From: Paramyrothecium sp. XJ0827
Lineage: Eukaryota > Ascomycota > Sordariomycetes > Hypocreales > Stachybotryaceae
Direction of reading: 5' to 3'
DNA length: 64,000 nucleotides
Assembly: GCA_020881915.1 (NCBI GenBank)
Contig: JAJFPB010000009.1
Span: forward strand, 2,976,001 to 3,040,000
Shown: piece after piece, positions 36,907 to 63,364 of the stretch
Layout of the letters: the number at the start of each line of letters is the position of its first letter
Position numbering within the stretch: the stretch's first letter is position 1
Translations under genes and position numbers: made by a program
The notes under the pieces: generated by a model
The model's input: the letters and a program-made list of their open reading frames with translations, nothing else
What the model was told of the DNA's origin: nothing
Databases searched by the model: none

Positions 36907-39495
36907 ATGACCGGCTCTACGCCCCGGTCACTGCGACGTGAGAGCGGGTCTCAACAACCAAACAATCCCGATCCGGATAGCGACTCGGCCTCTGCCACGA
37001 GGGTGACGGCAGGGAGGAGACGGAAACGCACCCGCTCCAACAATGACGAGCCGCCTGCCGCTGCTGCTGCCGCCGCCGCCGCCGCCGCCGCTGCTGCTGC
37101 CTGTGATCAGTGCCGGTTACGGAAAGTTCGCTGTGACCGGCGGCAGCCCGACTGTTCGAATTGCCGCAAGTCGGGTGTGGTGTGTTCGAGTTCGTACACG
37201 CTCAAGCGCGTGAATCACACAAAGCAATTGTATGCATCGAATCAGTCACCACTGGCTGAGGCGTGCCCGGTTAACGTTGATTAGACGTGGCGACATCTCT
37301 GTCGTTCTCGAGAGACTGGACCACATCGATACGACACTTGCCGCCTTGACGAAACCCCTTCATCAGGCAGCAGCCCAGCCGTGGTGTGACCCTCAAGCCG
37401 AAGCACCATCTTCCAATGATCCGGCACCACTTCTACTTCCCGAATTCGACTTCGATCAACTGTCCGACGCTCCCGCCGCCGCCGATCACCCCGCCTCCGT
37501 TGACGCTGCGTTTGAGATAGTCGAGTTAGACGAAGGCGGGAAGCGTATCTACGGATACCCAGCGCCTTTTGTCCTGCTCAAAGCCTTGCAGCGCCAGGCA
37601 GCTGGTGCTCTTGTCGAGTCCGACGAACAGAGCGAGCACCATGGCAATGGCGGAGGAACGAGCAACATGACTCGTGCCCTACAGATCCCTCACGTCAGGG
37701 CCGCACTGGAGGCAAAGCTGGAGGATTTTCCATTCAAGTCACCACGACCGGAGCCTGCCATGGCTGGGGATACAAACCCTATAACCACTCCTTCACGCCT
37801 CTTGTGTAACCTGTTTGTAGAAGGGTACTTGAAACACATCAATTCGCGCACACCTATCTTCGGCGACGCGGAATTGCGTTCTGCCATAGAGGCACACTAC
37901 AATGAGGAGGAATCCAAGGAGAACAGTGCGTGGGCTCTGATCATCAACAACGTCGTCCTCCTTGAGTTCGGTTTAGAGATACGAGCAGCCCGCGCTTCTC
38001 AACCCAACTCTCGCGGCATGAATGATGATATCCTCCCTTCGTTTTTGAGAAATTGTGACAAGGCCATCGAAAATCTCCATACCTTTACAACACCCAGCTT
38101 GGTCAACATTCAGGCCCTGATGACCCTGGTATGTTTCCTTACTGCTTAAAGCCCTCAGGAAACTCTGATCCGCTCACCCCGTTGCATTCCTACTGACTCG
38201 CCTAGACTCTTGTTGCTCGGGACTTCTACAGTCTCGTGGTGACCCAGAAAGTATGCCACGCGGCTTGTGAAGCAGGGCGCACATATGGCCTCCACCGCTC
38301 CACGGCTCAGTTTTCAAGAGAAGGGAGCACCTCCGATGACTCGGATGCCGTTCGAAAGCGAGTCTTTCAAGTTCTTTATACCATGGATAAACAGCGTGTC
38401 TTCATGACCGGTCTTCCGTGTGACCTGCATATGTTTGACTCGGATTATCTCCCATTCAGCGATGCCTTTGGCAGGTTAGCAAACCTCTGGGAAGATATTT
38501 ACTTGAGTTTGTATACTTCGAGAGCAGCCAGATCAAGTGAAGAGGCGCGTGCTTCACAAGTGGTGCGACTCAGCAACTCCTTAGACAGATACTGCTTGAA
38601 GTACATCAAGTCATTGCCTACAAGTCCAGATAACTCAGAAGAAAGCTATCCTGTCAAGATGGAACTGGTTTATGGGTTTCACGTATCCCAGGTCCTCGTT
38701 CTTCGCTGCGAACGACGCAACATAAAGAGCCAAGAAAAGATGCGCGAGCTTGGGCGAACAAGCTTAAAGCTGATCCTTGCTGTGTGTAAGCCACCACTCA
38801 CGGCGCCTCAGCTGGCACTACTGGCAAGTATAATCGGCAACTACCCGATGGTTGCATTCTTCGAGCTTGTGTCCTATCACATGGCTGGTCTGCTCAGAAC
38901 AGGGGAAGTCGAAGAAGAAATGCAGGCCGACATCTCACTGCTCCGGGATGTTTGCAAGCACCTACAAATACCGGAGCATGAGAAGCTCACACACATATTC
39001 TATGCCCGCCTGAAGCTAGGGCTGAGGTGGGCACTGGGCATCCTGGAGGTCTTGACAGACGCTCTCGCAAGCGTGGCACTGAATCAAGACGGAGAAAGTC
39101 AACACTCGCGAGCATCGTTTGCAAGCAGCTCCAAAAACTCTTCGAACCTCGTAACGCCAGAACTCTTCCATGTTTGTCCTATCCGTTTGCCCACTGTGGA
39201 CGAACGCAATTCAAAACTCTCATCATCCCGTTCCGGCGACACGACAGAGTTTAGCTCCATCGAGCTTGCAGAGCGGACAGATTTTGGTTTCTTCTCCTTA
39301 ATGGGTACAGATTTAACTAATCTGGACTCAGTGCGTGCGTCATCGGCGTGTGACTTTCCCCGCCCGTCATCGTCCGTAATGGCCTCATCTCAATCGGAGC
39401 TGGCCCCAGTCATCGCAACGGGCAGTGCTGACTGGGACAGCAGCAACATGGAATACTTTCAGGGAGCATTCGAGAATGGGTCGAGTTGGTCGTGA
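36907..39495 (+). CDS. Zn2Cys6 (fungal binuclear cluster) transcription factor
   Basis: Exons 36907-37229, 37285-38128 and 38206-39495 give 818 residues. The binuclear zinc cluster is perfect: C66-x2-C69-x6-C76-x6-C83-x2-C86-x6-C93. It is preceded by a basic region (RRRKRTRS) and a run of 15 Ala (51-65) coded by GCC/GCT repeats. The fungal-specific regulatory domain occupies roughly residues 290-560 (NLFVEGYLKHINSRTPIFG; later VARDFYSLVVTQKVCHAACEAGRTYGLHRS; RVFQVLYTMDKQRVFMTGLPCDLHMFDSD). The ATG at 36907 is preferred to upstream non-ATG codons. Its place at the left border of the FAS/dioxygenase/decarboxylase genes suggests it is the pathway-specific activator. It is convergent with the DHA1 exporter gene. 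Confidence 0.92.
37054..37101 (+). repeat. GCC/GCT trinucleotide run coding poly-alanine
   Basis: Fifteen consecutive Ala codons immediately upstream of the zinc cluster, mostly GCC in the centre. This is a length-variable tract by nature. Confidence 0.8.
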
Positions 39496-39843
39496 CCAGT
39501 TTGACTGGATGCTCACTTTGCTACGCGAGCACCATCTTTTCTCAGCGTATGATGGAAGGTGATGCGACCGTTCGTCAAGGGAAACAGAATATACATGGTC
39601 AAGTAAGAGTGGATTATCGTCGGCAAACCCATTCATTTATTACTGATAGGTTCTATCAACTGGTAGCAGCCTCATTTCATCGCAATACTGTGTATAGTAT
39701 TGGGCATTAAACTGAACCCCTTGACACTCGTTATTCAAGGCATGGATTAGTCACTGTCTAAGCCGAGTGCGTCCATATACTGAGTCTCAGTATAAGTGTG
39801 AGGCCTGCGCAAATAGTTCAGTAAGGCTCAAAGACCATATCCT
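39496..39843. other. Convergent intergenic spacer
   Basis: About 350 bp between the 3' ends of the regulator and the DHA1 transporter. Nothing further is seen. Confidence 0.5.
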
Positions 39844-41801
39844 CTAACCCTCCAGGATAACATCGCCAGCAGCGTATGGGCTCATAGCCCGGAGAGTGGC
39901 GCCCTTCCAGCGCAAGACCGTGGGGGCGAAGGTGCCCATAGCCGCCGCGATAGCAGCCAGTATGGTGCTAGACCAGCCGTAGCCCCAGTAGCCGATCATA
40001 GATGGGGCCATAACCGGCATGGCGAAGGCGGCAAGAGACCGAGTCACGGTCAGAGCCCCCTGTGCTGACGCTGCGTAAACCGGGTAAGCGTCCATCATGT
40101 AGGCCTGCATGCACATGAAAGACATTACGATGCCTACAGAGGCGATCGCCATGCCTATATTGGGAACGATCCAGTGTGCCCGTGCCATGGCGGCCCAGCC
40201 GAACAAGAGGAGTCCGCCAGGGATGAGGATAGCTGAGGGGAACATTAGCCACACCCTGTGCTCTGGGAGGCCAATGTTATCGTTGCGCCTCTTCAAAACA
40301 CGGTATATCTAGGCAATAAGAATGAGGATCAATTCGTATGAGTTATGGAGTGTACTAGTTCAACACTTACAAAATCGCCCAACGGGCCAGTCACTTCGCA
40401 ACCGAGCACGAGACCGATGGTAATCGACAGATAGTTGGCGCTGGCCCGGAGCGGGTCCATGTTGTACAAGTCCCTCCATAACGAGTCTAGGAGTTTCAAG
40501 ATGTGTTAGCTAAGGCTCCTGAGATAGTGGTCTTGATGGGGACCAAGAGGGCGTACGATATGTGGCGATAGACAGCTGGTATAGACCAAAGTAGAAACCA
40601 AACTGCAGTGCCAAGACTTGTATAATAGGCTGAGTGCCAAGCAGGATGAAAGGCCGGGCAAGTCCCTTTTTAATAAGCTCTTTCGTAGTATTTGACTTCA
40701 AGCTGCTACCAGAGTAAGTTACGGTCGTGGAAGTGTCGTTGAACTTTGTTAGCTTCGCGGCTCTCCTTCGACGCAGAATAACCGGGCCGAAGGTTTCGGG
40801 AAGGAGTAGAAGACCGGGTAAGAGGACTGCAGCAGACACGAATGAGAGGACATAGAAGATATACGGCCAATTGTAGTGTTTTAAGATATACCCAGCAAGC
40901 AATGGCCCTGCGGTCGGTCCCAGGAGTGGCATGATTGTGTAAATTGCCAGTGCAAAACCCCTGCGGTCGCTCTCCCAGAGGTCGCTGAGAACACCCGTCC
41001 CGAGCTAGTCTCGACGGCATCAGCTAAATTCGGAGATACTAAGACGGAAAAGAGTATAGCTAATGCATGAGAGTACAGGAAGCAATGTACTAACCGCTGT
41101 TGGCCCGCTGCCACAGAGCCCACTCGCAAGTCGTAGGAACAGGAAAACGCGATGGTCTCTAACAAGTGCACAGAGTAGGTTGAAGATGATAAAACCCAGG
41201 TTCCCAATATGAAGAATCGGCGCACGACCAAAAACTTCTGATAGCTGAGTGAAAAAGCAAGTAAGCATTACCTCCACTATACGTTGAACACAGGGCGACA
41301 ACATACCGGTCCCATGACCAAAGGTCCTGACGTCCTAGAACAATACTTAAGCTAAGTAACTGATTCATCTCATTTGGGGACTGTAATGAGTCATCCTTCT
41401 TGGGAGAATATACATACCAGCCAAGCACAAAAAGTGACATAGTTAGTTGCAGGACTGCTTGAGAGGTGATGTGCAAGTCACGAGCCAGCGAAGGCATTGC
41501 GGGGACTACCATGGCCGCGGCAGTTGGCGAGACAAGGCAGTAAAATGACACAATCATGGCACAAGTCCATTTTCGTGATGACTTCCAATTCTTAGGATTT
41601 CCTGGGTCAGACTGTGATGTCCATTGCAACTATTGGAGGGAATGAAATTAATGTTGGTGATTGCAAAAGTACAATCGATTCTTTACGAACCATTTGCCCT
41701 CCGGTTTGTACGAATCTAGTAGCTGTTTGATCGTCCCCAGCAGATCCTAGTTCTGGCCTCAGAAGTGCCGTCGCCTCATTCGGTTCGTTTTCATTGGTCA
41801 T
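39844..41801 (-). CDS. MFS transporter, DHA1 family
   Basis: Seven exons (41801-about 41691, 41629-41418, 41334-41307, 41244-41095, 41004-40557, 40486-40371, 40308-39844) give about 509 residues. The first intron donor is weak: GTTCGT at 41690 or GTACTT at 41672. The third exon is only 28 bp but is required to form TSGPLVMGPLSEVFGRAP, the motif A of drug:H+ antiporters. The N-terminus has SDPGNPKNW before helix 1, typical of fungal DHA1 members; PLLGPTAGPLLAGY is the antiporter motif C region. Twelve helices are expected in the plasma membrane, with a short tail. Lying between the regulator and the dioxygenase, it is the likely exporter of the cluster product. Confidence 0.88.
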
Positions 41802-42182
41802 GATGTTTGAAAGTGAAGAAAAACTCGATTGGATCAATGGAAGAGGCACTGCAGGAGCGAGTACTCCTGGGGTCGAGCCAGGTTCCTACTTAATGCGCCT
41901 GGAAGTTGAGGGGCGCTTTGTAAAACACGAACAAGCAAGTACTGACACTTGCTGAATGTCACAGAAAGGTCTTTCACACGTCACTTTATTCACGATTTGA
42001 TGGTTGTGATTAGGAAACGACTGTTGTGTAGCTGTCTCGGCAGAGGCTCATCAGCCGCCTGGCCGCCCCAGCTCAGAGCCCGGCTCGGACTCCGGGGCCC
42101 GAGCACCGAGGGGCTACAAGCCGAGTAGGAATACCGCAATTGCAATTCCGTGTTAATTGAATGATGGGAGAGCACACGAGCC
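41802..42182. other. Spacer between DHA1 transporter promoter and dioxygenase 3' end
   Basis: About 380 bp. Promoter of the transporter (minus strand), GC-rich around 42050-42120. No gene. Confidence 0.5.
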
Positions 42183-43482
42183 CTAGTGTCGGTTCTCCAA
42201 CTTGTAGGGCCAACCCCCGGTCGCCTCAATGCGAGATTTGCTCTTTGGATCTAAGAAGGGCTCTTCTCCCATCGTCATGCAACGCCAACCCAAACGGGGA
42301 CCCACGCCAAAATGGTCGCTTGTTGCCGCGTGGAAAGTGCAGCGGTTATCCCAGATGGCTTCATAATTCTCGTCAGTGAGTCGCTCGAAGATGGAGAGGA
42401 AAAGCGGCCTGATCGCGGGTTGACGGATGGTTAAAACTTACCTAGGTCGCCCGTGTTTTCCCAGCGGAAACGAACCTGCACATCCTGGTTGTCCAAGACC
42501 AGACGCGTAATCTTCTCATGAATCTGCTTGGACTCGTCATCAGTCACATCGTCGATGCTGAGGCAGTTCGCGCCCCAGCCGAAGATGCTCTTCCAGCCGG
42601 TCAGAGGGTGGGTGCGGACGAGAGGGTGGTGGCTCTTGAACTCAAGCCCCACGTTGCTGGCGGCGCCGCGCGGGCCCGTGAACATTTTGTCCGGGTTGGC
42701 TTTGCCGTACTGGTAGAGACCATCGTTGTAGTGCGTTGCTGTCAGCGACTCGAAGAACTTCTTGTACGGGGTGGTAAGCCGATCGTAGATTTCATATCCC
42801 GAGGCCCAAAGAGTGTCTGTTACGCGTCTACGTTAGCTGTCGATTTTGTCTATTGTAGTGAATTGCCTTGAAAAAAAAAAATAAACATACCACCCCCGGT
42901 CTCTGGTAACACCGTCATGCGAAGCACGGTGTAAGTGGGTGGCGCCGGTTCGAAGCTCGAATCGGTATGCCACTCCTTGATATGTGTCTGTCTAGGCATC
43001 CCCTTGGTGTCGGCAAGATGCATCTTCTTCAGACGGTCAGGATCAACTTTGCCCATTTCGGGGTCGCTGCCATGCATGGCCAGCAGCGAATGTCGGTAGA
43101 ACCCATTCTCCTTAGGAGCCCCGGAGAGTTCATTGACGCGCCGGCAGAACTCCTTCTGTGTGTTATCGTCAACATTGTGCTGATTACGAAAAAACACGAC
43201 GCCACGCTGACCAACTATAACAGCAGGAAACACAAGTCAGCCAAAAAAAACAAATCCATTCCCAAATTGATGGGTTTCGTTATGAAGAAGGGGAGGTGTA
43301 CTCAATAAGGCCAGATCCCGCAAAATATCATCCGAGTTCGGGGCTTGCAGCCACTCGGTGATGTCGACATCCTTGAATTCAGTACCAATGATTGGAGTCA
43401 CTGGCACGCTCTTGAATTCTCGAAGAGAGCCAGTATCCGGGAAAGGGGGGTAAGACGACTCAGGAGCCTTGAAGGAGCCCAT
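42183..43482 (-). CDS. TauD-family 2-oxoglutarate/Fe(II) dioxygenase (copy 1)
   Basis: Four exons (43482-43302, 43214-42891, 42816-42442, 42358-42183) give 351 residues, and all introns are in phase 1. The jelly-roll dioxygenase has its iron ligands in place: HTD (H143, D145) and the distal His303 in TFHAATSD, with Arg at about 315-319 to hold 2-oxoglutarate. Also visible are RGVVFFRNQ, SGAPKENGF and HPLVRTHPLTGWKSIFGW, the hallmark of the fungal TauD/sulfonate-dioxygenase branch. It should hydroxylate or desaturate a small carboxylate using O2 and 2-oxoglutarate in the cytosol. It shares a 617-bp divergent promoter with the SMP-30-like gene. It is a paralogue of the dioxygenase at 54866-56188, so the two may act successively on the same alkyl diacid. 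Confidence 0.93.
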
Positions 43483-44099: not shown

Positions 44100-45388
44100 A
44101 TGCAAGCGGTTCTTACTAGTTTGGACGTCGCAGCAAGCCAGAGCGTTACTGCGTCGTCTGTCGTCCAACCCTGCGAAGCCCATTACACAAATCAATTTCC
44201 ATCAATTCTTTGCATTCAGAGGTATGGCTCAGTTCTCCCGGAGGATTTTGAAAGGACTATCGCATCTACACCGGGCCATGTGGACACCTACGGCTCGACC
44301 AACGTTCCTAACGATCCAGCATTTGGACTCATTTCCAAGGCCGATTTCCTTATCTGGGATACAGACCATGCTGTTGATATCTTGGGGCCAAGTCCGTCCG
44401 TGGAAATTGTTTTTGAGGTCGGCAACATCCCTCACGAGGGAGTCGTCTACGAACCTGATCTCAATATCATTCTCTTCTCGCCTTTGAGGCCTCCTCCCAC
44501 ACTCCTAAAGATCGATCTCAATCAGGAACCCCCAATCTTGAGCAACATAACTACACAACCTCCGCTATTTGGTATCGGAGCCGTATATTATAAAGATCTG
44601 ATATACTATTGCGGATCTGCCACGCAGAGTGGTAATTATGTGGGCGGTCTATACGCTCTCAACGCCACGAGCAATAATGTCTGGCCGATTGCGAATAACT
44701 ACTTTGGATACAACTTTGGCACTTGTGACGACTTGGCTGTGGCCCCTAATGGCGATATCTGGTTCACAGATAACTGTAAGCATTTCGTTCTTGGTAACTT
44801 GGCTCTACGCCGGAGGGCTGTAAACTAAGGCTATTGTCCACCACAATAGGGTATACCTATTCCTTGCCCGAGCTGCACCATAACAACACGCTGCACCTGG
44901 AGCCTGCCGTGTACCGGTTCGTGCCGTCAACAGGTTTGCTGCAGGTGGTGACAGACGAGCTCTCGCAACCTAATGGTATCGCTTTTGCGCCCGACGGCAA
45001 GACAGTGTATATGACGGACAGCGGGGCAGACGTCATAACGGATGCGAACAGGAAGCTTCGCTACGTGTCTCATATGCGGCGCACCATCTACGCCGCCGAC
45101 GTGCTTCCCAGTGGCACTGGCATTGCAAACCGCCGCGCCATCTTCCTGGCCCAGGACCGCGTGCCCGATGGCATCAAGGTTTCGCGTAGTGGCTACCTTG
45201 TCGTCGCCACGGGTTCAGGCGTCGACGTCCTGAACCCCGCGGGTGTGCCCGTGCTCCGGGTTCAAACTGACTTTACTGTGTTGAATATCGTGTGGGCTGG
45301 AAAGGAAAACACGGATTTGTGGATGGTAGGGTATGAAAAGGTTGCGCGACTGAAATGGGCGCTCGAGGGTAATGTTCTTGCCAGGTAA
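44100..45388 (+). CDS. SMP-30/gluconolactonase-like beta-propeller protein
   Basis: Exons 44100-44775 and 44850-45388 give 404 residues from the chosen ATG. The same frame is open back to an ATG at 43797, but the added 101 residues are unlike the family and the true first exon is uncertain. Six-bladed-propeller landmarks are CDDLAVAPNGDIWFTDN (split by the intron), LSQPNGIAFAPDGKTVYMTDSGAD, YAADVLPSGTG, RVPDGIKVSRSGYLVVATGSGVDVLNPAG and WMVGYEKVARLKW. The Asn/Asp metal ligands of SMP-30 lactonases fall in the PNG and PDG motifs. A mature N-terminus resembling PCEAHYTNQFPSILCIQRY suggests a secreted or vesicular form. In this context it could form or open a gamma-lactone. Confidence 0.85.
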
Positions 45389-45817: not shown

Positions 45818-47645
45818 CTAAGAGCTCTCCTCGCTCTTCTCGCGCTTGGTAAGAACCGGAGTGGTGTTAGTACTATCAGACGCAGTATTGACAACCAAGG
45901 GTTCCCTAGTAACCGAGCCAGCCGTCTCCTCTGACTTATTTTCCTCATCCACTCCAGGAGCCGTCCTCTTGACGCTCTTCCACTCCATACCGGCAGCGGC
46001 AAGGAAAGTTAGAGCCGACATGGCCAGGCCGGCGATGAAGACAGTCCTTAGCGCATCATTGTACGCCGACTTTACAGCGTCCTGTGTCGGCTGGGGTATG
46101 TTGGTGATAGATGTGGCTCCTTGATCCAGGATTTTGTTAACATCGACTCCTGGTACGCCTTGTAGGTACCTGAGGAAGTAGTTGTTGAACAAATTCTGTC
46201 CGATACTGACGAATATGGACCCGCCCAGAAGCTGAGTGAAGAACATGAGTGAAGTGCCGATGGGGACGTCAGCAGCCTTCAGCACGGTTTGCGCCGCGAG
46301 CAGCGGTGCCTGCATTGTGATTCCCAGCCCTGTTCCGAATGGAATTTGGTAGCCAATCCATCTCCCCGTCGATGTATCAGGCTGAAGCGTAATGAGAAGA
46401 CCAGATCCCACAGTCATGAAAGCGATGCTCAGGAGCATGACTGGTGTGTAATATCCGAACTTCTGGATAACCACGCCGCCTACAAGCGACCCTCCAGCCT
46501 GCCCAATGACAAGCGGGAGAAGGCTGAGTCCGGATTGGACGGCGCTGGCCCCTTGAACAGCTTGGAACCAGATGGGGAGGTAGTAGAAGGTAGTCATCAT
46601 GGCGGCGCCGGTGAAGAACATGGATAAGGAGGCTGTGAAGATGCTACGCTGGGTGAATATACGGGGTGCTACTGTGGCGTTCAATGGCCACAGGACCTGA
46701 AAGATGGTAAAACAAATCAGCAGGATAATAGCAACCGCAAGAAGCGCGATGATGCGGGCGTTGCTCCAGGCGTAAGCTGTGCCTCCCCATTCTAGTGCAA
46801 GCAATAGGCTGATGATGCCACCGAGTAGGGCAATGACGCCTGGTCCATCTAGCTTGATAAGCTTCTGTTGGAGAGGCAGGTCCACCATCTGCTGGCCTTT
46901 GATGTGCAGCAAAAAGTAGATGCAAACCACCGAGACGGCTCCAAGTGGTAAATTGATGTAGACTATATAAGTCGTGTTAGCCCGCCGGTCTTGTTATGTG
47001 ATATAATGGTTGGGGAGGGGAGACGCACAGCACCATCTCCAGGTAGCGGCACTGTCAGTGAAAGCGCCGCCTATCAAGGGGGATGTTGCATTCGCCAGGC
47101 CAAAGACGACTCCAAAGAGGCCCTGGTAGAATGGCCGACGATGCAGTGGCACTGAGTAGACCATGATGGATATGGAGCCTGAAAAGATTCCTGCACTTCC
47201 CACGCCGGCGATGGCACGTCCCACGATGAAGGCGATGGAGTTGGGTGCAGCGCCACAGAGAGTCGAGCCGACCTCGAAAAGCAGTATACTAGCAAGAAAG
47301 ACATTCTTGATGCTGTAGAGGGAGTAAAGCTTCCCCAGAAAGAGTTGGAAGGCGCAGTTGGTCAGTAGGTATGCGGAGCCATACCACCCTACGTTTGTGA
47401 CAGACTTGAAGTCGTCTGTGATGGCAGGAATGGCCGTCGTCACAATGAGTCGGTCCTAGAATTGGAAAGGCGCGGCACATCAGGTATCCGAAAACTACGT
47501 GGTGAATGGTGGGAAGAGATCGTCTTACCAAAGCCACCAAGAACATGCTCAGGTATGATGAGCCCATAATCAGGACCAGCTTGAATCCGCGAGGGTAGGC
47601 AGGGCCATCCCCCTGTCCGGCGTCGGTGCGTCTCTCAGCCGCCAT
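45818..47645 (-). CDS. MFS transporter, DHA2 family (14 helices)
   Basis: Exons 47645-47529, 47455-47029 and 46962-45818 give 562 residues. The start is the first in-frame ATG after a stop. Exon joins form [23 protein letters not shown] and [14 protein letters not shown], both DHA2 signatures, with [25 protein letters not shown] and PLIGGAFTD in between. Fourteen membrane helices are expected, with a polar, charged C-tail. This family exports toxins, antibiotics and organic acids from fungi. Together with the DHA1 member it gives the cluster two exporters. It is divergent from the Dabb gene across 1.3 kb. Confidence 0.92.
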
Positions 47646-48941: not shown

Positions 48942-49541
48942 ATGCATTTCACACAGCTTCTCCTCGCCGCTGTCGGCTCCCTCGTGGCATCAACAGTCAC
49001 CGCTTCACCTTTTGCTGCTCCTGCGCCAAGAGCCTTGCACGGAGGCGAAATTACGCACTTTGTCGCCTTCAACTTCCTTGCTAACCAGACTCAAGCCGAC
49101 GTCGATGAGGTAAGACTTCATCACTAGAACACACGGCTCTCCAAGATACGTTTGCTGACCGAAGAATTCATGAACAGGTCACCAGACGTTTCCTCGCGCT
49201 CAAGGATAACTGCAAGAAAAACAACCAAACTTACATCCTGAGTGTGGCTGGTGGAACCAACAACAGTCCTACTGGACGCAACGTAAGCCATTATTTATTT
49301 GTTAATCGGGACCTAATAATTTTCACTGACACTGCATTCGCCCTTGTAGTTTGCTATGACACATGCTTGGATCAACACCTTTGCCAGCAAGGAAGACCGA
49401 GACTACTACCAGTTCCAAGATCCTTTCCATTTGGCTTTCGAAAAAGAAATGGCCTCCCGCCTTGCGAATGCTTTTGCCTTCGACTACTACCCATCTACCT
49501 ACCAGACTCTCGCCGAGTTGGAGAGACTCGGGCTCGACTGA
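48942..49541 (+). CDS. Secreted Dabb (stress-responsive alpha/beta-barrel) protein
   Basis: Exons 48942-49109, 49178-49282 and 49350-49541 give 154 residues, with all joins in phase 0. The signal peptide (about 1-21, LLLAAVGSLVASTVTA) is followed by a short Pro/Ala propeptide-like stretch. A Dabb fold comes next: EITHFVAFNF (first strand, with the conserved His), a helix with FLALKDNCKK, SVAGGTNNSPTGRN, then WINTFASKEDRDYYQFQDPFHLAFEKEM and a last strand AFDYYPSTYQ. Dabb proteins form dimers. In plants and some fungi a few act as cyclases or lyases on reactive intermediates, while others have unknown stress roles. It is small, secreted and inside the candidate cluster, so an accessory catalytic role is possible but not shown. 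Confidence 0.82.
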
Positions 49542-52650: not shown

Positions 52651-54242
52651 TCAAAGTACACTTTTAGTCGGTATCGCAAGAAGCTCAAATAGCGCTGACA
52701 TGTCTTCGACATTTTCCAATCCTAAAATTAGCTTTTCGATTTTGTCAAGGCGCTGCTCGTCGTCAATGGCGGAAGAAGCCAGCTTCCGATACTTCTCCTG
52801 GATCTCTACATCCGTGATTGGAGGGTTATACCCTCGTGGCTGGTCTAAGACGGCTTCAACTTTGAAGCCGTCGTCGAACTCGACAGTGATTCGAGCACCA
52901 CAGGCAAAGTGAGGCTGATCAAAGCGCGCGTCGTGGTAGCAGCTCGTTTTGTAGACCAAGTCCCACACCTCATCTCGGTCCAAGTTCTTATCAGCGAACT
53001 GCTCCAGTAGCACCTGACGATCAATAAGCTGCACAGCGCCGATGTAAGCGGCGTTCATCTGCGCACCGGTTGTCGCTAGTGGTCTCTCGTGGGGCTCCCA
53101 GCCATCATGTGCGAAGATAGGACCTGACAAGCCAACCTTGATGCGCGTAATGTGCCCAAGATTATCCCTCTTAAACCTCTCAGGGTGTACCTGCTGTAGT
53201 TGTGCCAACGCCTCAATCTGGCCGTGACACCCCCCCACGCAAGCGTGCAGCTTGACACGGATGTTGAAAATTTCCCACGTCCTGCCTAGGTCCTTGACCA
53301 CCTTGCGGACGTCATATGGAGGCTCAGTGCCGTTTCCCTTGCTGAACATGCTGAGGAAGCCGCCGTAGCGGCGCTCGAACACCTTGCGAATGCCGACATA
53401 GCCATTGCGGGCGAGCAGCGCTCCGAAAAGCCCGTTGCGAGCCGCAAAGGCGTGCTGCACGCGCTTGATCATGCCCTCATACGTCGCTGACATGAGACCA
53501 CCGGCTTGGGTGCAGGCGATGCCGACGGCCGACTCGGTCTTGTCCGCTGAGAGGCCCATGAGCCGGGCGCTGGCCACTGCCGCCGCCGGGCACCCGAAGA
53601 TCGCCCCGGAATGCCACCCCCGGACGAGAAGTTCGCCGCCACCGAGTGCGGATCCCACTCTAGGGCCCGTCTCAAACCCAACAACGGCGGCGAGAGCGAA
53701 ATCAAGCCCCGAAACTTTCTGCTTCGTCTTTCCCCTGCCGTTGCCGGTGGAAAGGAACTGTGCTGCAGCCAGCAGGGCTGGTACCACCACCGAAGCAGAA
53801 TGCAGCGGAGCGGCACTGTGGTAATCATCTAGTTCGGCTGCCTGAATAAAGGCGCCGTTTAAAATAGCTGCTGCCAGTGGGCTCAGTTTCTTAGGACGTG
53901 GTAGCTTCAATCAGCCAGAGGACGGATAAAGTGTCTGGGACCATTCACGTCGCTTACCTCGTTATAGCCAATGACACTGCAGTATCCGGGCGGCTCATAG
54001 TCCAGAATAGCATCGGCACATTGTTCTGACCACGGGACATGTCCACCGACGATGCCACATGCAATTCCATCTAGTATTAGATGCTTGACTCGTTCAAGAA
54101 CTGCTTCTGGGATGTCCGAGTACTTCAATCCGATCGCCCAATCGCAGAATTTGGCAGTAGTGTCACAGTTCTCATCCAGCGCGGGATTTACGTCCGCTTT
54201 GGAATGCATGTTGCTCAGATCCGCATACTTGGCTGCCCCCAT
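52651..54242 (-). CDS. MmgE/PrpD-family enzyme, cis-aconitate decarboxylase-like
   Basis: Exons 54242-53958 and 53904-52651 give 512 residues. The GTAAGC donor and AAG acceptor join in phase 0. The sequence follows fungal cis-aconitate decarboxylase (CadA) more closely than methylcitrate dehydratase: LERVKHLILDGIACG.VGGHVPWSE, EPPGYCSVIGYNE, AFIQAAELDDYHSAAPLHSASVVVPA, RGWHSGAIFG, GLMSATYEGMIKRVQHAFAARNG, FSKGNGTEPPY, and a C-terminus ending ELLAIPTKSVL. Residues described as active-site in IRG1/CadA (Asp and His of the DDYH...H block, the His of GWH, the Lys of MIKR and of KGNG) are all present. It would convert an aconitate-type tricarboxylate to an itaconate. With FAS in the cluster, an alkylaconitate is the likely substrate. 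It shares a 623-bp divergent promoter with dioxygenase copy 2. Confidence 0.92.
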
Positions 54243-54865: not shown

Positions 54866-56188
54866 ATGACGGTCAACGGAAACGGAGTCCAACACGCAAG
54901 AGCTAACGAAGAAGCCGTCAGGATAGACCATCGTGAGCCCCTCAAGCCGACGGGAAAATTGGACGGATTAAAGACCGTTGACCTCACTCCTTCCCTTGGT
55001 ACTGAGTTCACGACTGCGAAGTTGATTGAGTGGCTGGAAGCGCCTGACTCGGATGAGTTGTTTCGCGAGCTGGCCATTACTAGTTGGTGTCCCATCCCCT
55101 AGTACACATCATTGAACTCCTCCACCTCAACTTTGTAAACAGTCTCACGTCGCGGAGTTGTGGTGTTCCGTGCTCAGGACGGCTTGACTACTGAACACCA
55201 AAAGGCCATCGCTCGCAAGCTCGGGCAGCTATCCGGGGGACCAAAAGACCACGATCTCCACCATCACCCAATCAACAACTCTAACCAGAACCCCGGCGTA
55301 GATGATCACATCTCCATGGTAGGTTCCAGACAGGTCAAGAACTATGCCGGGATCACACCAGCCCTTACTAGCAATGCCAATGGCAAACGTCAATGTTCCC
55401 GACGTGAGTGGCATTCCGATATCCAGTGGGAACGCGCCCCGAGCGACTACTCGATCCTACGCATGGAGGTAATCCCTCCCAGCGGCGGAGGTAAGTAGTT
55501 CAAGCTCGAGAAGCAAAGTCAGTTTCTGAACAAAATTGCCTGACAGATACCATGTTTGCCTCTGGCTACGAAATTTACGATCGCATCTCCACTCCTTACC
55601 AGAAGTTCTTTGAAACTCTGTCCATAACCTGTTCGCAGTCCTCCTACCAGCTCGTGGCTGAGAAACTTGGGTTTAAAATGTTTGAAGGACCCCGTGGCTC
55701 TCCCGATAATGTTGGATCAGATTTGCTCGCTGTCCACCCGCTCGTCCGCACCAACCCAGTGACTGGATGGAAATCTCTATTCGGCATCGGCATACAGATT
55801 ACCAAGATCAACGGACTATCACCCGAAGAGAACGAAAACCTGAGGGATGTCTTTTACCGGCTCATCACCGATAACCATGATCTCCAATTCAGGTGCCGAT
55901 GGGAGAACCCGAACGACGTTGGTATGTTGCCTGTCCATATCTAATGAGCTCTGTCCAAATTAGGCCATGTTCCATACTTCCCTGTTAGCAACGCCTCGAC
56001 TAATGGTTTTATCTCATGTTGTAGCTCTCTGGGATAACCGCAGTGTTTTCCACGCCGCCACTGTTGATTACAGCGGTGAGCGAGTTGGCTATAGCTGCCG
56101 CAGCATTGGTGAACGCCCATACTTTGACCCGAACAGCATCTCACGCCGTGAGGGATTGGCCTTGGAAGCGCAGCAGCAGGCGTATTAG
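54866..56188 (+). CDS. TauD-family 2-oxoglutarate/Fe(II) dioxygenase (copy 2)
   Basis: Exons 54866-55082, 55143-55490, 55547-55921 and 56025-56188 give 367 residues. All introns are in phase 1 and at the same places as in copy 1; exon 3 is 375 bp in both. Iron ligands are HSD (H163, D165) and His323 in VFHAATVD, with Arg in YSCRSIGERP. RGVVVFRAQD, FEGPRGSPDNVG and HPLVRTNPVTGWKSLFG mark the same TauD branch. Compared with copy 1 it has a longer insert (about residues 118-155) before the HxD motif, including GVDDHISMVG and NYAGITP, so its substrate pocket probably differs. It likely acts on a different step of the same pathway. Confidence 0.93.
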
Positions 56189-56961: not shown

Positions 56962-59900
56962 TCACGCGAGCCTTTGCAGAGCTGAACTATGTGTGATCTC
57001 GGCAACTTCTTTCACGAAAGAGCTACTCAAGGAAAATGGTTTCCCAATCACGTTGGGTATGAACTTGCCCACAAGCAACTCTGGACGTATCGCTTCTGGC
57101 TTGATGCGACTACGTAAGAACTCTCTCCATGCAGGAACGCCAGGCTTTAATAGGCTCGAATGAAATGGCACATCGATGCCAACTAGAGGAATAGTTGCCC
57201 TGCCCCTTCGGATCTCAGTACCGAGTGGCAGGCTCTTCGACCGCGCAATAGTTTTGATAATGGTATCGCCGAGATAGGTTGTCTTTGGCTGTGGCGAATC
57301 GAGAAACTCCTGAACAGACCCCGCTTCAAGTTTGCGCGCTCCTACGGCATCAAGTACTTCCTTGAGACAGTATATATTGCGTACCTGTTTCCATGATGGG
57401 TTAGATTGATTATAGACATAGGGATGGACATCTGGGTCGCTTAGATAAAACGTACGTGGCCTGCACAAACATATTGGTCGCCTTCGACGTTAAAGTTGAC
57501 GATTTCCAGGAGCTCTCCACTCTCTTGATTGATGTGGTGGACTACATGTCTCAGTGCCTTGTCGTTGAAGTCTGTGCCGAAATATGATACATTAGCCAAG
57601 AACGACTTCAAGCAGATTGATCGCATTTGGGAATGACATACGCTTTCCAACTCTACTTGGGTTTGCTGCAACCATGGAGTAGCCAGTGTGGCCATCTAGA
57701 TTGCGCGGAATGGCCAACTGCATTGTCAAACCTCGGTAAATGGCGATGCTGAGCATATCTTTGATGCTGACAAAATCAGTCATGGACGAGAGCGCCCCGT
57801 ATTCGCCCAGGGAGTGGCCGGCAAAGACAGCGCCTTGTTGGATGAGGCCATTTTCCTGCATATGTGCGAAAGTCGCTCTTTCTACCAAGATGATGGCAGG
57901 CTGGGTAAAGAGCGTCGACTGGAGCAGCCCACGAGAGTCGGCAAAAGTATGCGACGTCGAGTGGCTGCTCAGTCCCGGTATAATGGGCATAAAGAGACGT
58001 GTCCCATCGTCCGTCACCACCTCAGACTTCATGTTGAGATAGTTCTGGAGGATTCTTTGGCCTTTTTTACCCCGGAAGTGTACTGTCAGTTCCTTTGGGT
58101 TATCCTTGATGACCTGGAGGACTGACCAGCCTGAGAGGTTCAATTAGCTTTCTTTCGATTTGTTGTCAAGGATTCTAGACAAGTTGAAGATATGCTGACT
58201 TACCATACGTATCTTGCATATAGCTATCTACCTCGTCATACATGGCTTTGGCTGCAGAACTCGTCTCGTACAGGGCCATTCCCATCCCTGCGGACTGACT
58301 GCCCTGGCCTGTGAAAAGATAGGCAGTTGAGGGCTGGTCGATTTCTGCCTCGCCGTGAAGCACTTCGTCCCCGGACTCCTCCTGGCGAGCGATAACCTCG
58401 AGGACCATACGACCGTTGTTCATCGCTGTGTGCGAAATTCCCACAACTAGAGAGTCACCAGGCTTGACGATGCCGACAAAAGAAGCATCGAAACGCCGCA
58501 GGCGGTGTGACTCTCCGGGAACCACGAGATCTTCTACTACCTTCCGGCACACGGCAGCCGTGTACATGCCGTGCATAATTGGACCAGGCAGCTCTGCCAG
58601 TTCAGCGAAGACAGGAGACGCATGGATGGGGTTGCAGTCGCCTGAAACCTCCGCGTAAAGCTGGGTATGCGAAGGCATCAATACGGCCACCTCCGATTCT
58701 GCAACCCATCCGGGGTTCTTGAGTGGTACAATATTATCAATTGCCTTGCCTTTCCGCTCGAGGAAGTCCAAGACCGGGTTTCCTTGGCAGGCAGCAGCGT
58801 CAAAGCATACAGACCCTAAGCCAATCTTGCTTCCGTTCCAGAGCAGATTCTCAACAGTACCTAGAACCTTGAGGTCGGGGGCGTTCTTCTGGCTACTAGT
58901 CCATTGACTATCAGTCTGTAGCCGGAAGATTAGCGTCTTTCCGACCAACGGGACAGACGAGTCATCCAGCTGCAGCCAAGAAAGGTCTCTGAGGACGGCT
59001 TCGTCTATCTTGGAATTCACTTGGAGCGCTATGATGGGCTCCTCCTTATGATGAAATGTGTTTTGGTAGTCGCTGAACTTGCCCTTGATAAGAAACTCCG
59101 AGGTCACAGTGGCAATGTGGCAATCGTTTCTCATCAACCTGGCTTCGACCTTCACTGATTTGCCTGTTGGTTGGATGGTTATAGCACGGATTGAGGACAC
59201 TGTGGTAATCATTTCGCCTACGCGCATTGGAGCCGCACCTGTAACGTATTTGGTACGGATAGATTGGTGGACGAGGCGCAGGATATCACCTCCAAGATCG
59301 CACCTCAGCAAGGGGCTCACCAAAGCCTCCCATGCGGCGATGACGGCAGCCTCCAGAGGCAATACCTCTGTGTGGTTGACATTGGCCATGTCGGATAGAG
59401 CGTGAGAAACTGCCGAACACAGTGCGCGGTGTAGGTCTTCTGTCAGTTTGAACTGATTGCTAGTGAACTTGTCGGTCAACCTGTCTGGTCTGGGCCGGCT
59501 CTGGCCAAGCCATAAGTGGGAATAGAACTCCTGAATCCGGTCATTGCGGTTGACGGTAGAGTCGATCAGCTGCAAAGTGTGTTTGCTAAATTCCCATTGC
59601 AGGATCAGAGTCGCGGGTCCCGCTGGGACCGAGTCGGTATGGATGAACTCTAGATGCAGCTTCTCCAAAGTCTTGTCCGCTGTGACACAGACAATCGTCT
59701 CGTTGGTGGTATCATCGCGGAGGGAGACCCTATCCAATCCCCGGCCAACTACCAAAGAGTACCCATGGCGGGCCCCGAGAATGCGTCGGAACGGGTTGGA
59801 CCGGGTGCGCCTCGACGCAGCCTCAAACACAGTCTCCTCTTCAATAAGGGCGAGGATGGCTAGGCTCGTGTAGGGTTTCAAACACTCGATCCATTCTTGC

Positions 59901-62900
59901 TCGCTAGGGAGAGCTTGGTCGGCCACCGGTCGAAATATAATGTAGTCTTCCGTCGCATCCATGACTATGCCATCTGATGATGGGCTTTCTGGTACAGTGA
60001 AGTTTGCCGAAGCTGATGCCTCATCGGTTCTGGGTCCCTCGATACCGCGCAATAAGTCTACTAGATCGTGGTGAATCTCATCCAGTATCTCTTTCGACGA
60101 TTGATCATCCCTGGTTAGGTACCGTACCGATACAGGGCTCTGCAATATACACACACGCTCTGGATCTTGCTCAAGGACGGCATCCAGATCCTCGGACTGC
60201 CAAAGGGAGTCCTTCTTGAACCAGTGTTCAAAATCGTCGTCAAAGGCCACGACGAAGTTGACTGGTTTACGACCTCGCTTCTTACAAGACTGAGTAAAGA
60301 AAAGGACGTCCTCAGGATGTAAGAGCTGTTCTGCGATATCAGGACAATCTCTGATCAATTCAGAGACCAAGCTCACTGGTTCGTCCAACAGTGATATATC
60401 AAAGGCGGATGAACCCTGCCTTTCGAGAGACCGTGTAGCGAATTCCCCCACGAGCTCGCGGTAGGACGGGTCAATCCATCGCTTCTGGTGGGTGATATAC
60501 ATGAGCTTGATGAGTCGATACAGCACTTCGGAATAAGTCATGTCTTCGAGATCCACCACCTCGCCCTCGATGTTTTCACCAAACCAAGGCTTAGCAAAAT
60601 CTGCGTTAAGCCGCTGTATGATATAGTCCTTGCGCTTCAACAGAGCAGCCTTGCGCTCTAGCTTAGGAAGGCTAAATATAGTATCATCCATTTCCCTCCA
60701 CAGCGCAACACCGCGTGTTGCAATCTTGTGGATGGGTTGCCCCATCTCTGAAGTTACAGTCAATACTCCCCCTGCAGCCTCGGCGCCTAGGTACGACTTC
60801 TCCCAGTCCAAGTCATCAACGCCCGGGGCCTTGACAAGGAGGCGCTTTATTCCTTGAGAAGTGTGTGCGTCAGTGGCAACCATCATCCTGCTCCCGAGTA
60901 ACAAGCCGTCGCATGGCATGGCCGGCCTCGCAAATGGGAGGGACCACGCCCCAGTCAAATATGGAAACATGCCCGCGCCGTCTCCGAATCCGCTCCCTAC
61001 AACGAGGTAGAGATTCGGACAACGCCTAATCTCACTGTACGTCTCCAGAAGCGGTTGGTGGAAATCTTCACAGGAATGATGACCCCCACCGCGGCCGCCT
61101 GTCCACTGTAGGATGACAGGGAAAGTAGGGTGTGTATTGGCAATCTTGATGACATCAAGTATAGCTCCTATTGACCCTGGTTTGAACGAAATATGCTCAA
61201 TCCCCAGAGTCTGAATGTATTGCGAAGCAATTTCCAAGGACGGAATTCCAGCGCCTATCGTGAGGCCTCGGATCGGAAGACCATTGCTGATCAGTTGGCG
61301 AATAAGCGGGATTTGATATCGGATTCCCTTTGGGTCGGCGTATATCAGGTTGCAGGTAATGCCCCGTCCTGCAGGTATACTAGCGGCCAAACGCTCGATG
61401 GCGGTCGTCATCGCCATCGGACTGTGGTAACCGCCGCCGGCTAGTTCAATGTGGTATCCGGCTTGCATAACGGATGAGGCAAAGTCCCAGGGCACGGTAG
61501 TCGGGGTCATACCAGCCACGATGATGGGAGGTGCTTTGAGTATATGGCTTAGTCGAGTCTCGATCCTGTAGTGACCGTCGTCCGAAGATGGGACAAGCCG
61601 GGGTCTAAAACGTTCTTCCCAAGTCTTTACGCAGACACATGATTCAGCACTGAAGATATCTGCTCTGCTCCCCACCGTTGTGTTCCCTGCACCGTCGAGG
61701 CTGGAAGCATCGGTAACGCGAACTCCCCGGCCATCCACATTCTGGTAAACCATACCGGCGAAGCGGCCGATGCCCAAAGTGACTATGTGCGAAAATTTAA
61801 TCCGGCCGTCAACTTGAAGAGCTTTTGGCCAATCTACTTGTTTGGTCGTGATGGCTTGGATCAACAAGCGAGTGGCATTTGCTTCCGGTTTGTACGCTGC
61901 ACGCAAGTCCAATCCAGTCTCAGTGTCGAGGACAGGAATCCGTAGACTACTGATCTTGGCAGCCTCAGGCCAGGATTGGGAGATCCTCGCGGCTACGCGA
62001 TCCACTACTCCTTGCAAGTGTGGAGTATGAAATGGCGCGTTGACAGGCAGGAAAAGGGAGGCGATGACTGGTTTCCTCCTGCTGTAGGGGATGCGGCTCT
62101 GGTCTAGACCATCCCTTGCACGAAGCTCACGCAGTCGTAGTGTCAAGCCCCTAAGGCTCCTTGGGGGTCCACCAATAACGTGATCTGTCGGGCTGTTGAT
62201 CAGGGATAGGTAGACTCGTTCTTCCTCAGCAAGATATTTGTTCCCAGAGGCAATCACGTTGCTTAGATCATCCTTGGACATACCACGCACCAACAACATA
62301 TGTGAGGGAGCACCCTCTCCGGCCTGCACATTGTCGTTGACCATGGCAGGGCTCATGAACGATTTCGGTGCTGCCATCTGACTTTCGTATCCGATCCAGA
62401 AGAGGAGCTCGACCGCCCATCTGGCTTCAACGAAAAAGGACTCCCAGTCGTGGCATCTTGCTACAGCAGCGGCAAGTACTAACCCCTGAGAGTGGCCAGT
62501 GATGCCTTCAAGGCTTTGAGCGAGCTCTCCCGGCATCATACCGAGTAGTCGACATAGGATATAGTAATGAAGTAGCCCGCTGATACCGATGATGGGGAAG
62601 CTGACCGCTGCGGCGGCGAGGAAATTCCTACTCGGTCTCTTTGCCCCGTCCTCGATCCATGCTTTCAGATCAATCTCACGGCCCAGGTAGAAAGCTTTGG
62701 TGTCCAGATGGCAAGTCAGTCCGTGAAGTACGTGACTGAGAGAGGTGACAAGAGGTTCGAGAATTGGCTGATGCAACAAGTACAACTCGGCCACCTCCTC
62801 CACGCAATTGGCATTGGCCGAGCTCTGGCCTCCGAATGCGAGTAAAATCTGGCTTTTGTTCTTTTGTGCCGCTGTTAGAAGCGCATTCGGAGCCGGAGGT

Positions 62901-63364
62901 AGGGGGATGGATAGTTTGGTGACGAGGGCCACGTAGGTGCGTAGAATTGATTTCCGTGCAATAGCGCTTTCACTTAACTCGGCCAAAAAGCAGTGTATCT
63001 CCTTTTCCTTCATAACATCGGTGCGAACAGCGTAGAACAAACGCGACAGTATTCCTGGAGAGGCACGACTCTTTTGAACATATTCTAAGAAGCTGAAGGC
63101 TAACGAAGCGCCAGAAGTCGGCACTATGCCTTCGCTGTGGTCTTTCGTCTCATTCAAAGAATCGAGGAAATTTGTTCGATAGTCGCTGAGCTGCGATGCG
63201 TCCCACAGAGACAGAGCGAATTCAATGTGGAGGGTTTGGTAGCAGACGGAGAAGGCCGTCAAGCCGTCGGGAGTTCCGGGAATGAAGCAATCAGGTGTAT
63301 CGAACATGACCGGGGCCCGGACTCCTTCGTCAGATGATACAGTAATTGCCTCTGAACTAGACAT
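56962..63364 (-). CDS. Fatty acid synthase beta subunit (cluster-type)
   Basis: Exons 63364-58204, 58130-57642, 57571-57456 and 57384-56962 give 2062 residues, the normal size of fungal FAS beta. The domains in order are acetyltransferase (GHSQG, Ser292), then the FMN enoyl reductase (about 605-870: PPIIVAGMTPTT, AGGGYHS, QWTGGRGGGHHS, GSGFGDG). A structural and dehydratase region follows, with a MaoC hot-dog dehydratase (about 1555-1670: SGDCNPIHASP, GPIMHGMYT). The malonyl/palmitoyl transferase comes last (FTGQGSQSAGMG near 1681; GHSLGEYGAL with Ser about 1827). Splicing restores TYG-WSVLQV and QYVCAGH-VRN. All visible catalytic motifs are intact. The subunit needs a FAS alpha partner carrying ACP, KS, KR and PPTase, which is not in the window. 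Its setting beside dioxygenases and a decarboxylase argues for a dedicated secondary-metabolism FAS (like HexB or StcK), not the housekeeping enzyme. Confidence 0.96.

Follow-up and report, generated by a model that had tools for sequence, protein, structure and literature searches.

Genes of the locus and their common promoter element

The window, i.e., the whole stretch of 64,000 nucleotides that was analyzed, harbors ten of the 13 genes of a cluster of approximately 36 kb, which extends in window-equivalent coordinates from 36907 to 73295 (Table 1) and continues outside the window as C15:3040008-3049295 of the 51.8 Mb fungal assembly. The 13 genes were scanned with Pfam (11 as full models, the fatty acid synthase (FAS) beta gene by its first exon and the DHA1 gene as a partial model), along with ten flanking ORFs. 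Spliced models and Pfam domains bear out the gene set named in an earlier, sequence-only reading of the window, which comprised FAS beta, an MmgE/PrpD enzyme, two TauD dioxygenases, an SMP-30-like protein, an MDR reductase, DHA1 and DHA2 transporters and a Zn2Cys6 factor. With the exception of DHA1, the computed models of these genes fall in 36907-63307 and contain no internal stops, and zero internal stops were found in the 12 resolved models of the cluster. The same reading had foreseen FAS alpha, a citrate synthase paralog and a second PrpD gene to the right of 64000; all three are located there, so that a reading of 64 kb anticipated genes beyond its own edge.

Table 1. Genes and promoter elements of the cluster (window-equivalent coordinates).
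Feature	Position	Strand	Model and evidence
Zn2Cys6 transcription factor, candidate pathway regulator	36907..39495	+	818 aa, 3 exons; Zn_clus 1e-10, Fungal_trans 4.4e-8 (Pfam)
DHA1-type MFS transporter	39844..41801	-	MFS_1 2e-21 on partial model; N-terminal exon read by eye; approximate exon structure
CGGNNNTCGGNNNCCG element, upstream of DHA1	42093..42108	-	motif count
TauD1, 2-oxoglutarate/Fe(II) dioxygenase	42183..43482	-	351 aa, 4 exons; TauD 5.1e-51 (Pfam)
SMP-30/gluconolactonase-like propeller	44100..45388	+	410 aa, start codon uncertain; SGL 2.2e-19 (Pfam)
MFS transporter, putative DHA2-type (label from the sequence-only reading)	45818..47645	-	562 aa, 3 exons; MFS_1 3.1e-39
Dabb (stress-responsive A/B barrel) protein, hydrophobic N-terminus	48942..49541	+	154 aa; Dabb 6.8e-13
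CGGNNNTCGGNNNCCG element, upstream of MDR gene	50770..50785	+	motif count
MDR zinc-binding-dehydrogenase-like reductase	51118..52128	+	336 aa, single exon; ADH_zinc_N_2 6.6e-13, ADH_zinc_N 5.8e-9, ADH_N 1.3e-8
CAD/SpoK-type aconitate decarboxylase (predicted)	52651..54242	-	512 aa, 2 exons; MmgE_PrpD_N 2.8e-64, MmgE_PrpD_C 7.1e-28
TauD2, 2-oxoglutarate/Fe(II) dioxygenase	54866..56188	+	367 aa, 4 exons; TauD 4.5e-44
FAS beta subunit	56962..63307	-	2043 aa, 4 exons; FAS beta domains in first exon (1701/2043 aa scanned)
Divergent FAS beta/PrpD promoter, left part	63308..64000 (whole runs to 64007)	.	contains CGGNNNTCGGNNNCCG element
CGGNNNTCGGNNNCCG element, FAS beta/PrpD divergent promoter	63854-63869	-	motif count
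PrpD, 2-methylcitrate-dehydratase type, predicted gene beyond window	64008-65543	+	profile search, Pfam
Citrate synthase (ACS), predicted gene beyond window	65955-67505	-	profile search, Pfam
Promoter element, outside window	67697	-	motif count
FAS alpha, predicted gene beyond window	68195-73295	+	gene model, Pfam

The element CGG-N3-TCGG-N3-CCG occurs four times in the cluster promoters and 102 times in the 51.8 Mb genome, and the backward control pattern 204 times genome-wide. The four occurrences stand against an expectation of 0.06 in 31.3 kb, for an element discovered by inspecting these same promoters. Among 48 spacings of the CGG motif that were tried, the best by count reached 13 matches versus at most 7 in 300 shuffles (0/300 reach it); by number of promoters with a match (6/8), it was equalled by the best shuffle. 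With at most one mismatch allowed, the wider pattern CGGNNNNCGGNNNCCG matches the window 20 times versus 9.85 expected (1/100 shuffles reach this number), some of them inside coding sequence, and no exact 8-10-mers common to the cluster promoters exceeded the shuffles.

Enzyme homology and paralogs in the genome

Identity of the alkyl citrate synthase (ACS) amounts to 82% with a Pestalotiopsis fici protein, 81-82% with four proteins of Apiospora and 78% with a protein of the sporothriolide producer Hypomontagnella monticulosa, whereas the nearest Aspergillus synthases among the named matches listed, which do not include A. oryzae, reach 63-70%. In a tree built from 45 chosen rows, ACS belongs to a starred set of 11, along with P. 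fici, Apiospora and rows of Xylaria type; Hypomontagnella and Bombardia join at the next fork, which has a support of 85 and is drawn open. ACS thus groups with alkyl citrate synthases and is distinct from the other synthases of the genome, whose eight compared loci show 34-45% identity to it over the longest stretches or no match at 1e-5.

The best solved relatives of PrpD are 2-methylcitrate dehydratases (PDB 5mvi/1szq, 1.2e-128), and those of CAD are cis-aconitate decarboxylases (2.6e-23), the two cluster proteins being 25% identical to each other over 262 residues. CAD shares 85% identity with PFICI_09702 of P. fici, 70% with a Hypomontagnella protein and 67% with a Seiridium protein named SpoK; by homology it is predicted to be an aconitate-type decarboxylase. 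In H. monticulosa, the relatives of ACS and CAD are on contigs of equal size (1246516). The route to alkylitaconate proposed in the sequence-only reading is well supported by this homology of synthase and decarboxylase to alkyl citrate pathway proteins. An MmgE/PrpD profile search of the genome gave at least five exon-level matches, corresponding to at least three genes, of which two belong to the cluster and a further PrpD copy is located on contig C9.

That reading had also considered that FAS beta might be the only, housekeeping copy of the genome; this did not hold, as further FAS beta copies are present on contigs C11 and C8, plus a fragment on C12. Since C11 carries a second FAS pair, we regard the pair of the cluster as a dedicated one, and a housekeeping FAS/PrpD neighborhood was rejected in view of this pair and of the separate PrpD on C9. 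Pfam detected no phosphopantetheinyl transferase domain in FAS alpha, which would therefore need another enzyme for this function. A DDE transposon starts about 64 bp past the FAS alpha stop; truncation of the gene by the transposon was rejected, because the stop codon precedes the inverted repeat by about 64 bp. As a separate observation, contig C8 carries a second locus combining FAS and citrate synthase.

TauD1 and TauD2 are 43% identical and belong to two starred clades, and a recent tandem duplication of the pair was rejected on this ground; long branches meet between the clades, so that their mutual position in the tree is unsure. An HxD...H motif and one downstream Arg are common to both proteins in the alignment. 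TauD1 shares 88% identity with PFICI_09699, and TauD2 83% with a protein of Apiospora marii and 80% with PFICI_09701. Among the named rows of the best 120 TauD matches listed, there was no Apiospora protein in the TauD1 clade and no Hypomontagnella TauD at all. Aspergillus avenaceus, reported to produce avenaciolide (PMC6208954), has a TauD2-lineage protein and a CAD on contigs of equal size, and A. lentulus carries both lineages; the extrolite list given for the latter in a review names no such lactone (PMC4703822). The SMP-30-like protein matches gluconolactonase chains in PDB (3e5z, 5.9e-12; 3dr2, 3.9e-10), above which WD-40 repeat chains rank via one short repeated stretch. Pfam revealed no second gene of this type among the 13 cluster genes and the ten flanking ORFs.

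Relation to known alkyl citrate clusters

The sporothriolide (spo) cluster of Hypomontagnella was reportedly described by Tian et al. in 2020. Like the present cluster, it is described with a dedicated FAS, ACS (78%), dehydratase, decarboxylase (70%), dioxygenase and lactonase (PMC8403587, PMC10565555); the present cluster differs from this description in its two TauD of separate lineages. The descriptions of spo and of the putative oryzine (ory) cluster of Aspergillus oryzae speak of lactonases in the plural (PMC8403587, PMC6162547), in contrast to the single SMP-30 gene found here. The ory cluster shares FAS alpha/beta, citrate synthase, 2-methylcitrate dehydratase (2MCD), aconitate decarboxylase, TauD (oryG), gluconolactonase-type proteins, transporters and a transcription factor, but is listed with one TauD, two lactonases, an acyl-CoA ligase and a truncated P450 (PMC6162547), whereas the present cluster has two TauD, one SMP-30, MDR and Dabb genes. 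In the A. niger akc/hadA system, FAS alpha/beta, citrate synthase, 2-methylcitrate dehydratase, a regulator and an aconitate-type decarboxylase are likewise described; however, the decarboxylase gene is not linked to the others, and no TauD is listed for the cluster (PMC7338620), while the present cluster includes the decarboxylase and two TauD. The cinatrin (ctr) cluster of Hypoxylaceae has in common a FAS pair, ACS, a 2-oxoglutarate dioxygenase, a transporter and a regulator (PMC13178491).

In P. fici, the relatives of TauD1 (PFICI_09699, 88%), TauD2 (PFICI_09701, 80%), CAD (PFICI_09702, 85%) and ACS (PFICI_09705, 82%) fall within seven consecutive tags, a linkage read from the locus tags. 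The TauD2/CAD order is reversed there and one tag separates the two TauD relatives, which leaves no room for the full set of SMP-30, DHA2, Dabb and MDR genes between the TauD1 and CAD relatives, the arrangement found here. In Apiospora kogelbergensis, three tags lie between 009078 (ACS) and 009082 (CAD), as in the present cluster. Judged by sequence comparison, the kind of cluster is already known, and two TauD of separate lineages together with one SMP-30 gene distinguish the present locus from the published gene lists that were compared; the sequence-only reading had suggested that the Dabb and MDR members may mark a variant. The new details are the separate lineages of the TauD pair and, by locus tags, the presence of both members beside synthase and decarboxylase in P. 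fici.

Predicted pathway and alternative readings

The identities of ACS and CAD and the SpoK relative in Seiridium led us to assign the locus to a known kind of cluster, and we consider it probable (roughly 0.7) that it is a FAS-dependent alkyl citrate cluster of the sporothriolide/oryzine type. Its product would be a gamma-lactone, with a bis-gamma-lactone (furofurandione) as the most likely form. The sequence basis of this reading is the gene set, the presence of further copies of the FAS pair and the synthase, the enzyme homology and the common promoter element. In the series of reactions that we infer, the dedicated FAS alpha/beta would provide an acyl-CoA, presumably of medium chain length, which ACS would condense with oxaloacetate to alkyl citrate; the PrpD-type dehydratase would remove water to give alkylaconitate, and the CAD/SpoK-type enzyme would decarboxylate it to alkylitaconate. 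TauD2 and TauD1, perhaps in this order, might then hydroxylate alkylitaconate, and the SMP-30-like protein might help or control lactone closure. The two MFS proteins would export the product, the Zn2Cys6 factor might control the gene set, and any role of the Dabb and MDR proteins would be conjectural, as is the division of labor between the TauD enzymes. A corresponding order (decanoyl-CoA, ACS, dehydration, decarboxylation, hydroxylation, lactonization) is described for sporothriolide (PMC10565555), and the role of the decarboxylase is backed by overexpression in A. niger (PMC7338620). Against this reading stand the single SMP-30 gene where several lactonases are described elsewhere, the phosphopantetheinyl transferase domain missing from FAS alpha, and the outcome for the reviews on A. 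lentulus and on Pestalotiopsis metabolites; a bis-lactone in particular is not compelled, in view of the features annotated for Apiospora arundinis.

The same pathway could stop at an open-chain product, a hydroxylated alkylitaconic (or alkylaconitic) acid of the kind seen in A. niger/Apiospora, with the SMP-30-like protein opening lactones or protecting the producer. Indeed, MS features of Apiospora arundinis, whose similar cluster also contains the decarboxylase, were assigned to hexylitaconic acids C and G by annotation (PMC10999098), A. niger is described to yield hydroxylated hexylitaconic acids with listed cluster genes that lack TauD (PMC7338620), and Apiospora proteins are near ACS, CAD and TauD2. 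We regard this outcome as rather unlikely, given that the TauD1 clade is without Apiospora among the named rows of the best 120 matches listed and that SMP-30/gluconolactonase-type genes are also found in the putative oryzine cluster, for which lactonized products were proposed (PMC6162547).

A pathway of the maleidride (dimeric anhydride) or cinatrin/squalestatin type is very improbable. PEBP-like proteins also belong to maleidride clusters, and neither these nor hrPKS or dimerizing isomerase-like proteins were detected by Pfam in the 13 cluster genes or the ten flanking ORFs. Maleidride clusters have citrate synthase and dehydratase in common with the present one, but are described with an hrPKS and a ketosteroid-isomerase-like dimerizing protein (PMC8403587). 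The ctr cluster also couples FAS with ACS and a 2-oxoglutarate dioxygenase; its gene list, however, gives a FAD monooxygenase and no dehydratase or decarboxylase (PMC13178491), the reverse of the present cluster, among whose genes Pfam showed no FAD monooxygenase. Both identities were rejected, since their defining features do not fit the Pfam results. That genes of primary metabolism lie together here by chance, or that the cluster is silent or decayed, is hardly credible: the transposon next to FAS alpha and the approximate exon structure of the DHA1 gene might speak for it, but the transposon lies outside FAS alpha, the 12 resolved models are without internal stop, a separate FAS pair (C11) and PrpD (C9) exist, and the linkage is kept in P. 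fici by locus tags.

Within the sporothriolide/oryzine-type reading, we tentatively propose a two-dioxygenase alkylitaconate branch common to P. fici and, less surely, A. lentulus, in which the hydroxylation that forms the lactone might fall to TauD2, in line with the part its lineage would play in pathways of the avenaciolide type, and a second regiospecific oxidation to TauD1, possibly leading to an undescribed oxidized furofurandione or other bis-lactone. Sporothriolide, avenaciolide and canadensolide (furofurandiones and related lactones) are antifungal. The structural difference between sporothriolides and oryzines was ascribed to the dioxygenase and lactonases (PMC8403587), and the two TauD lineages, which are well separated and of which one also occurs in an Aspergillus species reported to produce avenaciolide, offer an enzyme-by-enzyme test of this idea. 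In the literature searched, no mention of the four P. fici locus tags was found, nor of alkyl citrate for Pestalotiopsis/Sporocadaceae among the matches listed. A review of Pestalotiopsis metabolites contains none of the terms itacon-, alkylcitr-, furofuran-, butyrolactone and hexyl-, and mentions gamma-lactone three times (the spiro-lactones foedanolides; photinides).

Gene content, borders and promoter elements

The host genome comprises 51.77 Mb on 15 contigs; the window corresponds to C15:2976001-3040000, and 48 kb of sequence past its edge was added as right flank. The sequence-only reading had named an alkylitaconate-type gene set in the window and had pointed to the right flank for a second PrpD gene, a citrate synthase (ACS) and FAS alpha. 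The window set was borne out in full, and all three further genes were found past 64000. Models are predictions of a codon-statistics splicing script with intron borders then adjusted by eye, that of the MFS transporter DHA1 being partial (exon level). Pfam recognizes ACP, helical, KR/short-chain and KS domains in FAS alpha, and no phosphopantetheinyl transferase domain.

Features of the cluster and its right border (positions beyond 64000 are window-equivalent)
Feature	Position	Strand	Basis or content
Window gene set	36907-63307		Predicted models and Pfam: Zn2Cys6 factor, two MFS, two TauD, SMP-30-like propeller, Dabb, MDR reductase, CAD-like MmgE/PrpD, FAS beta
TauD1	42183-43482	-	2-oxoglutarate/Fe(II) dioxygenase
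CAD	52651-54242	-	CAD/SpoK-type aconitate decarboxylase
TauD2	54866-56188	+	2-oxoglutarate/Fe(II) dioxygenase
PrpD	64008-65543	+	Predicted model, right flank
ACS	65955-67505	-	Predicted model, right flank
FAS alpha	68195-73295	+	Predicted model, right flank
DDE_1 transposon	73360-75224 (L007:1360-3224)		Pfam domain and inverted repeats; about 1.86 kb

On the left, sugar transporter and GFO/IDH/MocA oxidoreductase pieces occupy 30.7-33.1 kb, and no ORF of at least 150 aa (stop to stop) was found at 33.1-36.9 kb. On the right, the DDE_1 transposon, presumably pogo/Fot1-like, starts about 64 bp past the FAS alpha stop and ends in 53-nt inverted repeats (98% complementary) with TA flanks; beyond it lie HET, MFS, ABC transporter, P450, carboxypeptidase and ZIP pieces.

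Paired CGG triplets are enriched in eight cluster promoter regions (6883 bp), the best of 48 spacings tried being counted 13 times, a count that never exceeded 7 in 300 dinucleotide shuffles; when the promoters hit are counted instead (6/8), the best shuffle equals it. All four exact copies of the composite CGGNNNTCGGNNNCCG within the 112 kb sit in promoters of the cluster, namely those of DHA1, MDR, FAS beta/PrpD and ACS/FAS alpha. One-mismatch copies of the wider pattern CGGNNNNCGGNNNCCG occur in the TauD1/SMP-30, DHA2/Dabb and CAD/TauD2 gaps and also in coding sequence. Genome-wide, 102 copies of CGGNNNTCGGNNNCCG give an expectation of 0.06 in the 31.3 kb span, which is not a clean probability because the motif was discovered in these same promoters. 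Since the four copies straddle the window edge, they argue for one putative regulon; none lies in the 1 kb preceding the Zn2Cys6 regulator gene.

Core enzymes and their paralogues

Among the best 120 of 3771 proteins, the relatives of ACS include those of Pestalotiopsis fici (82%), Apiospora (81-82%), Hypomontagnella monticulosa (78%) and an Aspergillus group (63-70%). A tree was built from 45 selected rows, with seven more distant synthases as outgroup. ACS sits there in a starred group of 11, together with P. fici, Apiospora and Xylaria-type rows, and Hypomontagnella and Bombardia join at the next fork out (support 85, drawn open).

Against solved structures, CAD matched cis-aconitate decarboxylases (best 2.6e-23), and the printed alignment places H, H and K at the positions of ACOD1 H103, H159 and K207, which we take to be important residues. 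PrpD matched 2-methylcitrate dehydratases at 1.2e-128, and its matches to cis-aconitate decarboxylases reached just 3e-9; the cluster thus has one dehydratase-type and one decarboxylase-type protein. Among the best 120 of 712 relatives of CAD, PFICI_09702 is 85% identical, Apiospora proteins reach 73-81%, those of Seiridium and Cercophora 78% and that of Hypomontagnella 70%; one Seiridium protein, at 67%, carries the name SpoK. Two CAD-type proteins of Seiridium unicorne are among the matches listed (P0123, P0138): the SpoK-named one (67%) is on a contig of the same size as that of its ACS (65529), the closer one (78%) on a contig of another size (501038).

The cluster FAS is dedicated, not housekeeping. 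That FAS beta might be the sole copy in the genome, and hence a housekeeping gene, is ruled out by relatives on contigs C11 (41% identity, one long frame) and C8 (37-50%, depending on the piece), with a further fragment on C12. The FAS alpha helical domain was likewise found at three loci, C11 (strongest), the cluster and C8; the C11 matches, spaced 5-10 kb apart, are presumably the primary FAS. The genome search also gave at least three MmgE/PrpD genes, namely CAD, PrpD and one on C9 (43% identity to PrpD). Eight citrate synthase loci were compared, including the cluster's own; four others match ACS at 34-45% over their longest stretches, and for the remaining three no match to it was obtained at 1e-5.

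At C8:5920272-5939883 (L027-L028), an MFS transporter, a citrate synthase (about 37% to ACS), FAS beta and FAS alpha follow consecutively as a second FAS and citrate synthase locus. Neither a dehydratase nor a decarboxylase stood out in the proteins predicted from the 40 kb modelled, and the locus is possibly another alkyl citrate pathway. The 560-aa open frame at C12:4325575-4326936 (L023, L030) aligns, at 34%, with only the N-terminal portion of the FAS beta query, and is either a piece of a FAS or the transacylase domain of a different enzyme. Further citrate synthase loci at C12:470092-471196 and C8:5029992-5030994 (39-56% by stretch of at least 60 residues to the A. lentulus and Whalleya synthases, which are outgroup in the ACS tree) may mark other pathways.

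Predicted route and tailoring enzymes

The sporothriolide pathway is stated, in the part of the source drawn on here, as characterised: it runs from decanoyl-CoA by way of alkyl citrate through dehydration, decarboxylation and hydroxylation to lactonisation (PMC10565555). By homology, we predict with high confidence that the studied cluster follows this route as far as alkylitaconate, which would arise from alkyl citrate by dehydration and decarboxylation. According to excerpts of the respective reports, more decarboxylase in A. niger shifts hexylaconitic to hexylitaconic acids (PMC7338620), and Apiospora arundinis, whose cluster includes a decarboxylase, yields features annotated as hexylitaconic acids (PMC10999098).

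With moderate confidence, the two TauD enzymes would then hydroxylate the alkylitaconate before a lactone ring closes. TauD1 and TauD2 share 43% identity, and in the alignment both retain the HxD...H iron site together with a downstream Arg, residues whose roles we assume from E. coli TauD. A tree of 35 rows, 33 of them picked from the best 120 of 3111, places the two in separate clades of seven rows apiece. The other rows of the TauD1 clade are P. fici 09699, Seiridium cardinale, Cytospora, A. lentulus, A. ellipticus and A. tanneri; those of the TauD2 clade are Apiospora marii, P. fici 09701, S. cardinale, Cercophora, A. avenaceus and A. lentulus. At exon level, the whole genome has at least 32 TauD matches. 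The SMP-30-like protein, by its SGL-domain homology, could as a lactonase open or close the ring. A firm product call is weakened because such a lactone is absent from the A. lentulus list in the portion of a review covered here (PMC4703822), and the corresponding portion of a Pestalotiopsis review has spiro- and other gamma-lactones only, without itaconate or furofuran words (PMC9695833).

Judged by the tested features, the cluster is one of the FAS-type alkyl citrate clusters and would work as they do, the sporothriolide cluster (spo) and the putative oryzine cluster (ory) of Aspergillus oryzae being nearest. The supportable difference lies in tailoring: the cluster has two TauD from separate lineages and a single SMP-30 gene, whereas partial descriptions list one TauD and two lactonases of the SMP-30/SGL kind for ory (PMC6162547), and a dioxygenase and lactonases for spo, known by description only. 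Since the alkyl citrate kind is already known and the tailoring set differs, the cluster is counted as a variant, not a new kind.

Linkage in other fungi

Linkage was judged in 15 species by a rough proxy, a shared length of the longest contig, among the matches listed (best 120, proteins clustered at 90%). By this proxy, ACS, CAD, TauD1 and TauD2 are together in P. fici and A. lentulus, ACS, CAD and TauD1 in A. tanneri, CAD and TauD2 in A. avenaceus and Cercophora, CAD and TauD1 in A. ellipticus, and ACS and TauD2 in Apiospora marii (CAD apart) and S. cardinale (TauD1 apart). Hypomontagnella, Bombardia, A. ibericus, S. unicorne and two Apiospora species have ACS and CAD without TauD among the matches listed, and Cytospora has TauD1 alone; a missing gene is a weak sign in any of these species, because only the best 120 are listed, unnamed rows included, with proteins clustered at 90%. 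The tags of one A. lentulus strain (ACS 008616, TauD2 008614, CAD 000592) leave a single locus including CAD unsupported. The P. fici tags (PFICI_09699 TauD1, 09701 TauD2, 09702 CAD, 09705 ACS) indicate the same cluster, partly rearranged. In Apiospora kogelbergensis, ACS (009078) and CAD (009082) leave space for three intervening genes, matching the studied cluster.
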